The translations under genes and the position numbers were made by a program. From an uncultured Bacteroidales bacterium (GTDB taxonomy: Bacteria > Bacteroidota > Bacteroidia > Bacteroidales > Muribaculaceae): DNA of 10,197 nt. Numbering within the stretch: the first letter of the stretch is position 1; every line of letters starts with the position of its first letter. The stretch covers positions 1 through 10,197 of the forward strand of contig CAMWNL010000022.1 in NCBI GenBank assembly GCA_947175585.1, read 5' to 3'. Positions 2,233 to 7,289 of this stretch are shown here, piece after piece. The notes below the pieces were generated by a model, which worked only from the letters and a program-made list of their open reading frames with translations, did not search any database and was not told where the DNA came from.

Positions 2233-3012
2233 ATGGCAAAAAGAATTGTAACAAAGATAGGAGACATTTTCTGCGTGGAGATAGATGGCAATAGAAAGTC
2301 CTATTTCCAGTATATCGCAAATGATATGAGTATGTTAAACAGCTCGGTTATACGCGTATTCAAGACTAATTATTCGATTGATACCAATCCCAAGATAGAG
2401 CAAATAGTCAATGATGGCATCGCCTTTTATGCCCACACCGTTTTGAAAGCAGGAATTCAGCACAATGCTTGGTACAAAATTGGGACATCAAAAGAAACTG
2501 ATGAAGAGACAGCTGCGAATGTTATCTTCGCCTTCGCTTCAATTAGTGATATATATTCCCCAAATTTTGAAGCGCCAAAAGATCCATTATCCAACTGGTA
2601 CATTTGGAAAATTAACACAGACTTAATCAGTGTCGGAAAGCTGCCAAAAGAATTTTGGAACATTGCTGAACCTGGTGGAGTGTATTCTTATATGGAAATT
2701 GTTTCGCGTATTAAATCAGGCTATTACGGTTATACAAGAATTGAATATGATGTATTAAAGCGGAAGCCTTTGCCGGATGTAGATAGCTATATTAAGGTGG
2801 TTGGTGAAAACGAGACAAGCTACTATCAGTTTAAAGGACAATATGCAGTAAAGGAACTGATAGTCTCGGCTTCAGATTCAACAAAGTTAACCACCGACAG
2901 ACCTGAGGCTAACGGATATGAGCTCCGTAAAGCTGAATTTGGTGAGACAAACTGGCACTATAATAATTTCATTTCTCAGGAAGAATTTGAGGACGCCTGG
3001 CGCTCATACTAA
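2233..3012 (+). CDS. Imm26-like hypothetical protein (possible orphan immunity protein)
   Basis: This is a 259-residue cytoplasmic-looking protein with no signal peptide or membrane segment. The N-terminal part, KIGDIFCVEIDGNRKSYFQYI (from residue 8) followed by LNSSVIRVFKTNYSID, resembles from memory Bacteroidales proteins annotated as immunity protein 26, a predicted antidote family in polymorphic toxin systems. That is a resemblance, not a search result. The C-terminal half (SGYYGYTRIEYD, then DSYIKVVGENETSYYQF) is beta-rich and aromatic and I do not recognise it. No toxin gene adjoins it, so if it is an immunity gene it is an orphan. The gene is much more AT-rich than ssb or pheA and is flanked by a direct repeat, both hints of acquisition. 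The ATG at 2233 follows an A/T-only leader. Confidence 0.55.
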   Translation: MAKRIVTKIGDIFCVEIDGNRKSYFQYIANDMSMLNSSVIRVFKTNYSIDTNPKIEQIVNDGIAFYAHTVLKAGIQHNAWYKIGTSKETDEETAANVIFAFASISDIYSPNFEAPKDPLSNWYIWKINTDLISVGKLPKEFWNIAEPGGVYSYMEIVSRIKSGYYGYTRIEYDVLKRKPLPDVDSYIKVVGENETSYYQFKGQYAVKELIVSASDSTKLTTDRPEANGYELRKAEFGETNWHYNNFISQEEFEDAWRSY

Positions 3013-3052
3013 TTCAGCGATACATATCTCAAGCCTCCATCCCCAAAACCAC

Positions 3053-3100
3053 TCCCCAAAAAAATCTGTTTTTTTGTCTTTATGTCGTCATAAAATAAAG
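3053..3100 (+). repeat. Imperfect direct repeat, right copy
   Basis: This is the partner of the repeat at 2064-2110: CTCCCC at 3052-3057, TCTGTTT at 3065-3071, TGTCTTTATGTC at 3075-3086 and TAAAATAA at 3091-3098. Within it AAAAAAA-TCTG-TTTTTTT (3058-3075) and TTTATG-TCGT-CATAAA (3079-3094) can fold as weak hairpins, so it could also end transcription of the Imm26-like gene. Confidence 0.5.
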
Positions 3101-3160
3101 AGGACGAAACTACGATTTTACTTAAAACCGCGATATTTTTAATAAAAATTGTTGAGATTG

Positions 3161-3191
3161 TTGCGTATTTAAAAATGAAGTTGTAGCTTTG
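3161..3191 (+). promoter_or_regulatory. Promoter of the aromatic amino acid operon
   Basis: A -7 box TAGCTTTG (3184-3191) matches TAnnTTTG, with TTG at 3161-3163 and a 20-nt spacer. The predicted start, near 3198, places the leader-peptide ATG (3212) about 14 nt into the transcript and leaves about 185 nt of leader before pheA. Confidence 0.6.
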
Positions 3192-3211
3192 CGGCATAAA
3201 TCACAATAATT

Positions 3212-3283
3212 ATGACACGATTTTACGCATATTATTATTCCTTTTATTTCTATCGCAAGATTAGGAACGGGATTATCGCGTGA
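3212..3283 (+). CDS. Phe/Tyr-rich attenuation leader peptide
   Basis: This is a 23-codon ORF, too short for routine gene callers. Residues 4-14 read FYAYYYSFYFY, so 9 of 11 are Phe or Tyr (3 Phe, 6 Tyr in the whole peptide); the rest is basic and plain (RKIRNGIIA). It starts just after a predicted promoter and lies upstream of a terminator that precedes the Phe/Tyr synthesis operon. This is what a ribosome-mediated attenuator needs: low charged tRNA-Phe or tRNA-Tyr stalls the ribosome in the aromatic run. Codons 18-21 double as the left arm of an antiterminator. Its product probably has no function of its own. No Shine-Dalgarno is seen. Confidence 0.87.
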   Translation: MTRFYAYYYSFYFYRKIRNGIIA

Positions 3284-3345
3284 ATGGTCAGAAGACAAAA
3301 CGATAAAATTAATAAATCAAACAACAATATAAATCAATCCCGTTC
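3265..3345 (+). promoter_or_regulatory. Antiterminator helix of the Phe/Tyr attenuator
   Basis: GAACGGGATT (3265-3274) is perfectly complementary over 10 bp to AATCCCGTTC (3336-3345), which is also the left arm of the terminator. The two helices cannot coexist. The left arm begins 11 nt after the last Tyr codon (3251-3253). A ribosome stalled in the aromatic run should therefore leave it free, while one that reaches the stop codon (3281-3283) would cover it and let the terminator form. Confidence 0.78.
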
Positions 3346-3378
3346 ATCACACAACTGATGACGGGATTTATTTTTTTT
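3336..3378 (+). terminator. Attenuator terminator before pheA
   Basis: AATCCCGTTCATCA (3336-3349) pairs with TGATGACGGGATT (3356-3368), giving 13 bp with one bulged T and a CACAAC loop. It is followed by TA and a run of eight T (3371-3378). The T-run ends three bases before the pheA ATG at 3382. It is a typical intrinsic terminator in the place where it would gate the whole operon. Confidence 0.87.
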
Positions 3379-3381
3379 AAC

Positions 3382-4236
3382 ATGGACAAGCTAAAAGTGA
3401 CCATCCAAGGTGTGGCCGGATGTTTCCACGACGCCGCAGCGAGAGAATACTTCGCCGGGCAAGACATAGAGACTGTGCCGTTTGACACGTTCCACGACAT
3501 GTTTGACGCCCTTGAGGGCGACGCCTCGCTCGTCGGTATCGTGGCGATTGAGAACACCATCGCCGGCAGCCTGCTGCAGAACCATGAGATGCTGCGCCGG
3601 AGCAAGCTGCGCATCATCGGCGAGCATAAAAAACGCATATCCCACGTTCTCGCCGCCCTGCCCGGGCAGTCTATCGACGAACTGTCAGAGGTCAATTCCC
3701 ACCCGATGGCGCTGATGCAGTGTGAGCAGTATCTGCGCCGCCACCCTAATCTGAAGATGATCGAGCGCTTTGACACAGCCGGTAGCGCCAAAGAAATCGC
3801 CGAACAGCATCTCACCGGTCACGCAGCCGTCTGCGGCGACTACGCCGCCAGGCTCTACGGTCTCGAAATACTCGAAAGCGGCATCGAGACCAACCGCCGT
3901 AACTTCACCCGTTTTCTTATCGTGGCCAATCCGCTGCTTGCGTCTGAGATAGGCCCGTCGGAAAAGGAGGTCAACAAGGCTTCAATCGTCTTCACCCTGC
4001 CCCACACCGGCGGCGCTCTGTCCAAGGTGCTGACCATCCTGTCGTTCTACGATATGAATCTGTCAAAAATCCAGTCTATGCCGATCATAGGCCGCGAATG
4101 GGAATATCGCTTTTACGTCGATCTGACCTTCGGGAGCATCGTGCGCTATCATCAGGCGATAGACGCCGTTAGACCGCTGACCAACGAACTGATGACCCTT
4201 GGCGAGTACGCCGAATTTAAAACCAATAATGACTGA
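3382..4236 (+). CDS. pheA: Prephenate dehydratase with C-terminal ACT domain
   Basis: This 284-residue monofunctional enzyme converts prephenate to phenylpyruvate, the committed step to phenylalanine. Catalytic-domain motifs include IENTIAGSL (residues 56-64), NSHPMALMQC (105-114) and the TRF motif at 176-178 (NFTRF). An ACT regulatory domain starts near residue 198. Its two Phe-binding motifs deviate from the consensus: GALV reads GALS (211-214) and ESRP reads QSMP (231-234). Phe feedback may therefore differ from classical enzymes, though this may simply be the form usual in the phylum. ATG 3382 gives the family N-terminus (MDKLKVTIQGVAGCFHDAAA). An in-frame ATG at 3358 lies inside the terminator stem and would translate its T-run. 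First gene of the operon, and overlaps the aminotransferase start. Confidence 0.95.
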   Translation: MDKLKVTIQGVAGCFHDAAAREYFAGQDIETVPFDTFHDMFDALEGDASLVGIVAIENTIAGSLLQNHEMLRRSKLRIIGEHKKRISHVLAALPGQSIDELSEVNSHPMALMQCEQYLRRHPNLKMIERFDTAGSAKEIAEQHLTGHAAVCGDYAARLYGLEILESGIETNRRNFTRFLIVANPLLASEIGPSEKEVNKASIVFTLPHTGGALSKVLTILSFYDMNLSKIQSMPIIGREWEYRFYVDLTFGSIVRYHQAIDAVRPLTNELMTLGEYAEFKTNND

Positions 4237-5422
4237 ACCCATGAATCAACCGAAAAAAATTGTGCCTGCCGACCGTGTCGAGGCAATCAAGGAATATTAC
4301 TTCTCACGAAAACTGCGCGAACTCGCCAGACTCAACGCCGAGGGAGCCGACATTATCTCACTCGGCATCGGTGGTCCTGATCGCGCACCGTCAGCCGAAG
4401 TGATCGCGACCATGCAGCGCGAGGTCGGCATCGAGTCAAACCACAGCTATCAGTCTCACAACGGCTTGCCCGAACTGCGCCGGGCTTTTGCAGACTGGTA
4501 TCAGCGAAAATACGGCGTGACGCTCAATCCTGACAACGAAATTCAACCCCTAATCGGTTCAAAAGAGGGCATACTCCATCTGTCGCTGACATTCCTCAAC
4601 CCGGGCGACGGTGTGCTTGTTCCTGACCCCGGTTATCCGACCTACAGCTCGGTCAGCCGCCTCGTCGGTGCCGAAATTTTCACCTATGATCTCACCGAGG
4701 AAGGCGGATGGCTGCCGGACTTCGACGCTCTCGAACGCCTGCCCCTCGACAAGATAAAACTTATGTGGGTCAACTATCCCCACATGCCGACAGGACGTCA
4801 GGCCACACGCGACACCTTCGAACGCCTGATTGATTTCGGTCGCCGTCACGGCATAGTCATCGCTCATGACAATCCCTACAGTTTTATACTCAACCGCGAG
4901 CCGCAGAGCATCCTTCAGGTCGAGGGTGCGATGGATGTGGCGATCGAATTAAATTCGCTCAGCAAGAGCCATAATATGGCCGGATGGCGTGTAGCGATGG
5001 CGGCTTCAAACCCGACATTCATCTCCTGGCTTCTCAAAGTCAAGAGTAATATTGACTCAGGCCAGTTCAAACCCGTGATGCTTGCCGCAACCGAAGCGCT
5101 TAAAGCCGACGACAGCTGGTATGACCAACTGTATGACGTCTACGCCGAGCGCCGCACAATCGCCGAAGACATCATGCGCGAACTCGGCTGCAGCTTCGAC
5201 GAACAGCAACGCGGCATGTTTCTCTGGGGACGCATCCCTGACGACGTGGAGTCAGGCGAGTGGCTCGCCGACGAACTTTTCTACAAGGCAAAAGTGTTTA
5301 TAACTCCGGGATTCATCTTCGGCCGCAACGGCGAGCGCTACGTGAGAATATCACTCTGCGCCAAACCCGAGAAACTGCGCGAATCTCTGAATCGCATCCG
5401 TCAATATAACAACAATAAGTAA
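4229..5422 (+). CDS. PLP-dependent class I/II aminotransferase, aromatic operon
   Basis: This is a 397-residue fold-type I aminotransferase. Visible features are the N-terminal LGIGGPD (about 45-51), the PLP-contacting DNPY (214-217), the Schiff-base Lys246 in SLSKSHNMAGWR, and the substrate-carboxylate Arg373 in VRISL. The usual NPTG motif reads NYPHMPTG (182-189), with Met where Asn is normal. Its place between prephenate dehydratase and DAHP synthase suggests transamination of phenylpyruvate and 4-hydroxyphenylpyruvate, or of prephenate. Sequence alone would equally allow an alanine- or DapL-like activity. ATG 4229 overlaps the pheA stop by 8 nt; ATG 4241, just after that stop, is an equally good start (393 residues). 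An upstream TTG at 4199 is unlikely. Confidence 0.9.
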   Translation: MTEPMNQPKKIVPADRVEAIKEYYFSRKLRELARLNAEGADIISLGIGGPDRAPSAEVIATMQREVGIESNHSYQSHNGLPELRRAFADWYQRKYGVTLNPDNEIQPLIGSKEGILHLSLTFLNPGDGVLVPDPGYPTYSSVSRLVGAEIFTYDLTEEGGWLPDFDALERLPLDKIKLMWVNYPHMPTGRQATRDTFERLIDFGRRHGIVIAHDNPYSFILNREPQSILQVEGAMDVAIELNSLSKSHNMAGWRVAMAASNPTFISWLLKVKSNIDSGQFKPVMLAATEALKADDSWYDQLYDVYAERRTIAEDIMRELGCSFDEQQRGMFLWGRIPDDVESGEWLADELFYKAKVFITPGFIFGRNGERYVRISLCAKPEKLRESLNRIRQYNNNK

Positions 5423-5436
5423 ATACATATATCATA

Positions 5437-6519
5437 ATGAAAGACTTACAACCACTGTTTCCGACTCTTGACTCGTCGAAACCCATCATAATTGCCGGCC
5501 CCTGCAGCGCCGAGACCGAAGAGCAGGTTATGACCACCGCGCGTGAACTCGCCGCCAACGGCATTAAAATTTTCCGCGCCGGAATCTGGAAACCGCGCAC
5601 TCACCCCGGCGGCTTCGAGGGTATCGGCGAGGAAGGCCTCAAATGGCTCGCCCGTGTTAAAGAAGAAACCGGCATGATGGTGTCGACCGAGGTCGCTACC
5701 CGTCAGCACGTAGAGCAGGCATTAGCCGCCGGCATCGACATGCTCTGGATCGGAGCCAGGACATCGGCCAATCCGTTTGCCATGCAGGAAATCGCCGACG
5801 CGCTTGCCGCTGCAGAAGTTGACATACCGATCCTTGTAAAGAACCCCGTAAATCCTGACCTCGAACTCTGGATCGGAGCCATGCAGCGCATTTATAACGC
5901 CGGTATACGCCGCATCGGAGCCATACACCGAGGATTCAGCGCATACGGCAAGCATCTCTACCGTAACCTGCCGCAGTGGCGCATCCCCATCGAGCTTCGC
6001 CGCCGATTCCCCGCCCTTCCGGTGTTCTGCGATCCAAGCCATATCGGCGGCAAGCGCGAACTCATCGCCTCTATCTCTCAGCAGGCTCTCGACATGAGCT
6101 TCAGCGGACTCATCATTGAGAGTCACTGTGACCCTGACTGCGCGTGGAGCGACAAGGCGCAGCAGATCACGCCCGAAGTGCTGAATTTCATACTCCACAC
6201 TCTTGTGCTACGCGACAAATCGACATCGACCGAAAGCCTCGCCCTGCTACGCCAGCAGATTGACCGCATCGACGACGAGTTGCTCGAACTCCTCGACAAG
6301 CGCATGCGCGTCGCCTGCGAAATCGGTCAGTATAAGAAAGAGCACTCCATGCCCGTCATTCAGGCCGGACGTTATAATGACCTCATGGAGCGTCGCGTCA
6401 GCTCGGCTGTAGAGTTGGGCATGTCAGCCGATTTTATGCGCGCAATCCTTGCCGCTATCCACGAAGAGTCAGTGCGCAAACAGATTGAAATCGTCAACGG
6501 TCATCCTCTCGGAAAATGA
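5437..6519 (+). CDS. Bifunctional DAHP synthase / chorismate mutase (C-terminal AroQ type)
   Basis: This is a 360-residue fusion. Residues 1 to about 262 are a type I-beta (KDO8P synthase-like) DAHP synthase, joining phosphoenolpyruvate and erythrose 4-phosphate at the entry to the shikimate pathway. Motifs are AGPCSAE (20-26, with metal-ligand Cys23), FRAGIWKPRT, LVKNPVNPD, AIHRGFS, FCDPSHIGG and IESHCDPDCAWSD. Residues about 268-350 are an AroQ chorismate mutase (chorismate to prephenate), with Arg272, Arg291, Lys300 and Arg312 in expected positions. The Glu that normally follows the last Arg is replaced by Tyr313. Porphyromonas gingivalis has the same domain order, and there the mutase domain mediates prephenate inhibition of the synthase. 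The start is 14 nt after the aminotransferase stop. The stop overlaps the next ATG as ATGA. Confidence 0.95.
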   Translation: MKDLQPLFPTLDSSKPIIIAGPCSAETEEQVMTTARELAANGIKIFRAGIWKPRTHPGGFEGIGEEGLKWLARVKEETGMMVSTEVATRQHVEQALAAGIDMLWIGARTSANPFAMQEIADALAAAEVDIPILVKNPVNPDLELWIGAMQRIYNAGIRRIGAIHRGFSAYGKHLYRNLPQWRIPIELRRRFPALPVFCDPSHIGGKRELIASISQQALDMSFSGLIIESHCDPDCAWSDKAQQITPEVLNFILHTLVLRDKSTSTESLALLRQQIDRIDDELLELLDKRMRVACEIGQYKKEHSMPVIQAGRYNDLMERRVSSAVELGMSADFMRAILAAIHEESVRKQIEIVNGHPLGK

Positions 6520-7289
6520 AAATACTGATTCTTGGAGCCGGCAAGATGGGCTCATTCTTCTGCGACTTGCTATCGTTTGACCATGAGGTTGCGGTTTATG
6601 ACCCCGATCCTCAGCGACTTCGCTTCACATTCAACTGTCAGCGCTTCTCTTCGCTCGATGAGATTGACGCTTTCGAGCCACAGCTCGTCATCAACGCCTC
6701 CACGGTCAAATATACCATCGACGCGTTCAAGGCCGTGTTACCACACTTGCCATCCACGGCTATCCTCAGCGACATCGCGTCTGTAAAGACCGGTTTACCG
6801 GAGTTCTATGCCGAGTGTGGTCATCCGTTCGTGTCGACCCACCCTATGTTTGGCCCGACCTTTGCGTCACTGAGCAATCTCTCCAACGAAAACGCGATTA
6901 TCATCACCGAGGGTGACCACCTCGGCAAAGTCTTCTTCCGGGACCTTTACAACCGACTGCACCTCCACATTGAGGAATACACTTTTGCCGAGCACGACCT
7001 GACTATAGCCTACTCGCTGTCAATTCCGTTTGCTTCGACACTTGTGTTTGCATCGACCATGAAGCATCAGGATGCTCCCGGCACCACATTCAAGCGCCAC
7101 ATGGCTATTGCCAATGGCCTCATGAGTGAAGACGACTATCTGCTCAGCGAGATATTGTTTAACCCAAACACATCTGACCAGCTCCAGCAGATCAGCGACA
7201 AACTCACCGAGCTCAAAGACATTGTCGACGCCCGCGACAGCGACCGAATGAAAGCCTACCTCGACCGCGTCCGCCAGAACCTGAAGTAA
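6516..7289 (+). CDS. tyrA: Prephenate dehydrogenase
   Basis: This 257-residue NAD(P)-dependent enzyme oxidatively decarboxylates prephenate to 4-hydroxyphenylpyruvate on the tyrosine branch. A Rossmann motif GAGKMG (7-12) and Asp29 after the second strand (VYDPD) suggest NAD preference. HPMFGPT (109-115) is the family signature, and His160 in FAEHDLTIAYSLSIPF heads the conserved helix. There is no ACT domain and no fused mutase, so this is a short single-domain form. It overlaps the DAHP synthase-mutase stop by ATGA, and closes the operon. Feedback by tyrosine is not obvious from sequence; control may rest on the upstream attenuator and on the fused mutase. Confidence 0.93.
   Translation: MKILILGAGKMGSFFCDLLSFDHEVAVYDPDPQRLRFTFNCQRFSSLDEIDAFEPQLVINASTVKYTIDAFKAVLPHLPSTAILSDIASVKTGLPEFYAECGHPFVSTHPMFGPTFASLSNLSNENAIIITEGDHLGKVFFRDLYNRLHLHIEEYTFAEHDLTIAYSLSIPFASTLVFASTMKHQDAPGTTFKRHMAIANGLMSEDDYLLSEILFNPNTSDQLQQISDKLTELKDIVDARDSDRMKAYLDRVRQNLK

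Follow-up and report, generated by a model that had tools for sequence, protein, structure and literature searches.

A probable Phe/Tyr leader-peptide attenuator upstream of the pheA operon in class Bacteroidia

The pheA operon and the region upstream

In the window, the whole 10,197-nt stretch of DNA analysed here (locus L001; contig CAMWNL010000022.1 of assembly GCA_947175585.1, from an uncultured Bacteroidales bacterium of the Muribaculaceae), pheA is the first of four operon genes identified by domain matches (Table 1). With all four enzymes encoded, the operon can serve both Phe and Tyr, and this gene content agrees with the argument of the initial annotation that a mixed Tyr and Phe leader fits an operon making both amino acids. 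The operon is directly preceded by a gene (2233-3012) whose product carries an Imm26 (immunity protein 26) domain, and weak microRNA/sRNA model matches, all under their cut-offs, occur on both strands at 1033-1095.

Table 1 Features of the pheA locus (window coordinates)
Feature	Position	Strand	Basis
Putative Bacteroidetes-type promoter	3161..3191	+	TTG 3161-3163, 20 nt, -7 box TAGCTTTG 3184-3191; sequence
Leader ORF	3212..3283	+	23 codons + TGA, translation MTRFYAYYYSFYFYRKIRNGIIA; sequence and similar leaders class-wide
Segment 1:2 hairpin	3213..3290	+	long imperfect stem around sensor codons, A in 3′ side; fold and covariation in relatives
Sensor codons 4-14	3221..3253	+	Phe/Tyr in 9/11; sequence
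Segment 2 (A), antiterminator 5′ arm, within leader ORF	3265..3274	+	exact reverse complement of 3336-3345
Segment 3 (B), partner of A (antiterminator) or C (terminator)	3336..3349	+	pairing in sequence
Segment 4 (C), terminator 3′ arm	3356..3368	+	pairing in sequence
T8 run 3′ of terminator stem	3371..3378	+	sequence
pheA, prephenate dehydratase (PF00800)	3382..4236	+	domain match
Class I/II aminotransferase (PF00155)	4229..5422	+	domain match (scan 4208-5422); start = ATG overlapping pheA end
DAHP synthase-chorismate mutase fusion (PF00793, PF01817)	5437..6519	+	domain match
Prephenate dehydrogenase (PF02153)	6516..7289	+	domain match

The promoter match and the 23-codon leader with nine Phe or Tyr codons among codons 4-14, both claimed in the initial annotation, are present in the sequence. 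The TTG and -7 box were called from the Bacteroidetes promoter consensus, and the box lies 20 nt from the leader ATG at 3212. Phe and Tyr occupy codons 4, 5, 7, 8, 9, 11, 12, 13 and 14, and none of 2000 dinucleotide shuffles of 3013-3381 yielded a short ORF with nine Phe/Tyr codons within 12.

Downstream of the sensor codons, segment B can pair with either A or C. The 10-bp antiterminator proposed earlier, 3265-3274 with 3336-3345, was verified as an exact complement, and pairing with 3333-3350 as good as the real one arose in 10 of 2000 shuffles of 3248-3335. Of the 13-bp terminator claimed at 3336-3368, the mutually exclusive helix and the T8 run stand, with the correction that the stem (-16.2 kcal/mol) carries one bulged U; a 33-nt hairpin of equal stability appeared in 0/300 shuffles of 3285-3381. 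The T8 run ends at 3378, three bases upstream of the pheA ATG at 3382. The reported geometry, in which A begins 11 nt past the last Tyr codon (3251-3253), is seen in the window and recurs in relatives, where the best antiterminator arm starts a median of 11 nt (quartiles 8-13) past the last aromatic codon over 115 loci.

That these structures belong to a known riboswitch, a T-box or another described RNA family is extremely improbable. The Rfam families (Phe_leader being an example) produced six window matches at E up to 1, none at cut-off. One of the sub-threshold hits, to RsaJ, does overlap the element at 3272-3368 (30.8 bits, E 0.00032), but the RsaJ cut-off is 100 bits.

Leaders and helices in relatives

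Relatives were drawn from several samples: a first set, mostly Muribaculaceae, made up of the best 80 of 257 pheA loci from contigs plus relatives (28 of 61 matching genomes); an order sample (49 of 118); and a phylum sample (102 of 118). The first set and the order sample overlap, 7 of 42 order loci coming from genomes of the first set, and other classes are represented by 28 loci, the best-scoring among 77 genomes that had a PDT match. A leader was counted when a short ORF carried 7 or more aromatic residues within 12 codons and lay at most 350 nt upstream of pheA. Loci with less than 200 nt upstream (L064, L070, L072, L077, L106, L131) were left out, identical upstream DNA was counted once, and the window contributes one row.

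By this definition an aromatic leader precedes pheA at 75/95 distinct loci of the first set, 35/42 of the order sample and 20/24 of the class, the samples overlapping, and at 0/28 loci of other classes in the phylum. The corresponding shuffle backgrounds were 23/1900, 14/840, 11/480 and 2/560. Both Phe and Tyr occur in 113/115 homologous runs, and Trp in 22. At 94/112 loci a TAnnTTTG box occurs no more than 90 nt from the leader ATG, compared with 11 expected from shuffles, and in 80 of those 94 the spacing is 16-32 nt; 82 loci combine the -7 box with a correctly spaced TTG (3.6 expected). A Shine-Dalgarno (SD)-like 4-mer within 20 nt of the leader start is missing in 113/115 loci. On these sequence comparisons, the same kind of switch appears to be carried by many relatives across class Bacteroidia.

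No leader passed the threshold at 20/95, 7/42 and 4/24 loci, of which L007, L116, L178 and L182 look like weaker leaders. In the first set, nine loci without a leader (L085, L091, L092, L093, L096, L100, L105, L107, L108) have pheA 14-71 nt downstream of a long ORF on the same strand; this ORF is the methionine synthase gene metH in the three that were checked (L085, L093, L100). The four leaderless class loci fall two per genus in two genera (L151 and L200; L195 and L204). Among genomes of the window's own genus, 16/37, its own included, have a prephenate dehydratase match (E up to 1e-20), several of the misses being 99% complete; the suggestion is that Phe synthesis has been lost in many members of this genus.

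A terminator was found at 115/122 unique leader loci and was absent by our criteria at seven, including that of the cultured Barnesiella sp. WM24 (L090). Another cultured strain, Duncaniella muris DSM 103720 (L066), carries both leader and terminator. The 115 unique loci with both leader and terminator were used for the helix tests. As their terminators had been picked with a T-run requirement, the search was repeated at 130 loci without it, and at 84/130 loci the 8 nt following the best hairpin contained at least 5 T, compared with 9/130 on its 5′ side. These counts bear on translational attenuation, in which the hairpin would hide the pheA start region and leader stalling would expose it with no transcription termination. 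The window hairpin ends only 13 nt 5′ of the pheA ATG, and the tetQ operon of Bacteroides is controlled translationally by a leader peptide, both of which would suit such a mode of control; the one-sided T-rich stretch argues against it, as does a gap of over 30 nt between the hairpin and the nominal start in 33/130 loci, and we regard it as improbable.

The antiterminator pairing is specific to each locus. A:B energy averaged -14.66 kcal/mol within loci and -10.22 with B swapped among them (0/10000 permutations, n=115). In a wide set of 60 loci (L017-L029 and L110 onward), in which the window's family is still represented by two genomes (L018, L130), the values were -14.59 and -9.24 kcal/mol (0/10000). 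A reversed B of the same composition gave a difference of 0.96 kcal/mol, compared with 5.36 for the real segment; since 0.96 is still beyond all 5000 swaps, composition accounts for part of the A:B signal but not the bulk. The shared B cores comprise 88 distinct sequences; A and C carry an identical base at 869/962 shared positions, and a median of 8 B bases is common to both helices. In an earlier test against shuffled DNA, the A:B z was above -3 in 27/67 loci. The initial annotation had called for a comparison of many relatives upstream of pheA, looking for aromatic runs and compensatory helix changes; in that comparison leaders recur class-wide, as do antiterminator and terminator, with coordinated changes in the helices. 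Homologous loci lacking an aromatic leader or helix covariation, named there as evidence against attenuation, were sought as well, and the outcome did not refute the attenuator reading.

The initial annotation had seen no separate anti-antiterminator arm and had supposed that ribosome coverage alone might suffice. The 1:2 hairpin is not significant in the window alone (z -1.3 and -1.5 in two tests), and is present and covarying in relatives, so coverage is probably not the whole mechanism. From ATG-15 to A+20, leaders fold better than their shuffles (median z -2.16, 59/115 below -2), and in the folding model A is on average 0.68 paired with the aromatic run before B exists (115 loci). Leader codons pair with A plus 25 nt at -15.71 in real and -11.30 in swapped combinations (0/5000, n=115), and in the wide set the 1:2 hairpin reaches -15.58 compared with -10.80 (0/5000), a difference of 4.78 against 0.73 for the reversed control. 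The lower stem, formed between the start of the run and the region 3′ of A with A itself excluded, gives -8.16 compared with -6.16 swapped (0/5000, n=114); in the wide set its difference of 1.55 exceeds the control's 0.67 by a modest margin. Reversed controls nearly beat the swaps themselves (91/5000 for 1:2, 34/5000 for the lower stem).

These swap tests are alignment-free because MAFFT columns drift with indels, and RNAalifold on 38 MAFFT-aligned leaders, part of 49 references, returned no consensus pairs. In the same 38 leaders, 21 lower-stem cells had changed on both sides yet remained paired, compared with 9.9 in shuffles (0/500), a count made on a structure taken from one member (L047), a choice that biases it toward that structure over slid versions. 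The number of pairs with two-sided change was 6, not above the shuffled 5.1 (166/500).

A three-segment attenuator without an anti-antiterminator, whose untranslated leader would read through, was the design first drawn from segment A alone, and it was set aside once the folds included the 3′ flank of A. Segment A alone carries no pairing signal with the leader (median z -0.18), which together with the insignificant window hairpin and the dominance of A:B in the ribosome-free window (P 0.86) would fit three segments. The swap signal for segment A alone (-6.53 compared with -5.69) is comparable to what the composition controls give (0.67-0.96 kcal/mol) and was not taken as evidence. Against three segments, the leader pairing that includes the 3′ flank of A is locus-specific, the reversed control being much weaker, and the lower stem covaries; this design is unlikely.

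The same pairing bears on whether the small ORF might instead encode a functional aromatic-rich peptide, for example a membrane peptide, followed by an ordinary terminator. An MTRF start, common among Muribaculaceae loci, would speak for such a peptide, but conservation of the 5′ codons may stem from their pairing with the region after A. The variable length and C terminus, the exchange of Phe and Tyr for one another, and an antiterminator arm that can fall either within the ORF or beyond it also make a functional peptide very improbable.

Predicted switching of the leader

The 1:2 anti-antiterminator being present and covarying in relatives, we read the element as, very probably, a classical four-segment ribosome-mediated transcription attenuator sensing charged tRNA-Phe and tRNA-Tyr. 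Its anatomy, conservation, covariation and spacing are read directly from the DNA; from these we infer the transcription start, stalling, termination, the limiting amino acid and the behaviour of the untranslated state. Transcription would begin a few bases upstream of the leader ATG. With Phe or Tyr short, the leading ribosome would stall in codons 4-14 and open the 1:2 hairpin, leaving segment 2 just past its front edge, so that A:B pairing could form, no terminator would arise and the operon would be transcribed. With both amino acids ample, a ribosome at the stop codon would cover A, B:C would form and transcription would end in the T run before pheA. In an untranslated leader the 1:2 hairpin could hold A, also favouring termination.

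Spacing and folding predictions were compared with this scheme. Assuming an E. coli-like footprint, A would lie under a ribosome at the stop codon in 105/115 loci and be clear of one stalled on the last aromatic codon in 107, with 101 loci showing both. With the footprint masked, the mean P(A:B) was 0.83 for a mid-run stall and 0.70 for one on the last aromatic codon, falling to 0.08 at the stop; with no ribosome it was 0.55. The window gave 0.95, 0.96, 0.00 and 0.86 for the same states. In the model, the stop and stall states thus act like a classical attenuator, and the untranslated state is predicted to be ambiguous at equilibrium, favouring the antiterminator in the window.

So read, the element would define, from sequence, a complete conserved attenuator with a two-amino-acid sensor in a major bacterial group of the gut and the environment. 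Since such control requires that a ribosome follow RNA polymerase closely, and since the leader starts are SD-less, it would offer a direct test of transcription-translation coupling in Bacteroidota. The pheA leader element also suggests itself as a candidate Phe/Tyr-responsive control element for these organisms.

Known systems and other amino-acid operons

The enterobacterial pheA attenuator (pheL) also consists of a leader peptide with four-segment logic and a terminator before pheA. That leader senses Phe alone, whereas Phe and Tyr are mixed in nearly all Bacteroidia runs, and the near-universal absence of an SD-like 4-mer at Bacteroidia leader starts is a further difference. The enterobacterial trp, his and ilv attenuators resemble the element in that stalling picks the antiterminator over the terminator and a 1:2 hairpin surrounds the sensor codons; they respond to other amino acids in another phylum, and the likeness is one of mechanism.

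Within the phylum, the available portion of PMC9723704 describes 64 structured 5′ regions in Flavobacterium psychrophilum, names conserved 5′ elements of pheA and hisG in Flavobacteriaceae, and speaks of strong clues for leader-peptide attenuation 5′ of amino-acid operons. The pheA element named there is alike in gene and phylum and in having no Rfam match. That account, in the same portion, runs to a few sentences on one family with the operons bearing leaders left unspecified, whereas the present analysis delimits the leader, the two mutually exclusive helices and the 1:2 hairpin and follows them through class Bacteroidia. In the accessible part of PMC7366714, sORFs in long 5′ UTRs of Bacteroides thetaiotaomicron are said to recall attenuation leader peptides, with BT_4401 as the example and pheA unmentioned there; PMC4833913, as far as its accessible text goes, counts Bacteroidetes leader genes for another purpose. 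Among the openly readable matches listed, by title and start of abstract, no description of a class-wide pheA leader was recognised, an earlier prediction being possible. The mechanism is thus known and the element partly reported, and what is added here is its definition, its breadth and the fourth segment.

Other amino-acid operons were surveyed by seeking hisG, trpE, ilvD and homoserine dehydrogenase in 40 genomes each and scanning their upstream regions. At 6/18 hisG loci of class Bacteroidia (L208, L212, L215, L217, L220, L221), a short ORF rich in His (for example MNRTHHHHHLTYSENPE) precedes a terminator; a simple antiterminator is clear among these six only in L220, and one occurs also in the His-poorer L218. 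Of ten hisG and ilvD loci tested, one has no terminator, and a simple antiterminator was clear (z below -3) only in L218, L220 and L241. The last, an ilvD locus, has the leader MIALHTSINLAILHIIRVVVVSSGM and a terminator of -20.6 kcal/mol; its antiterminator arm (z -5.5) lies 11 nt past the last Ile/Val/Leu codon, and this layout matches that of the pheA element.

Class-wide Phe/Tyr leaders, His-rich leaders at some hisG loci and one Ile/Val-type leader at ilvD together lead us to favour, with some reservation, the view that ribosome-mediated attenuation is ancestral and general for the amino-acid operons of class Bacteroidia and works from leader starts devoid of Shine-Dalgarno motifs. If attenuation is indeed general there, transcription and translation must be tightly coupled in this class. 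Upstream of trpE, three loci (L224, L227 and L234) also have short ORFs in which Trp codons stand close together (NTWRWQ, NTNWCW and NRWWLL).
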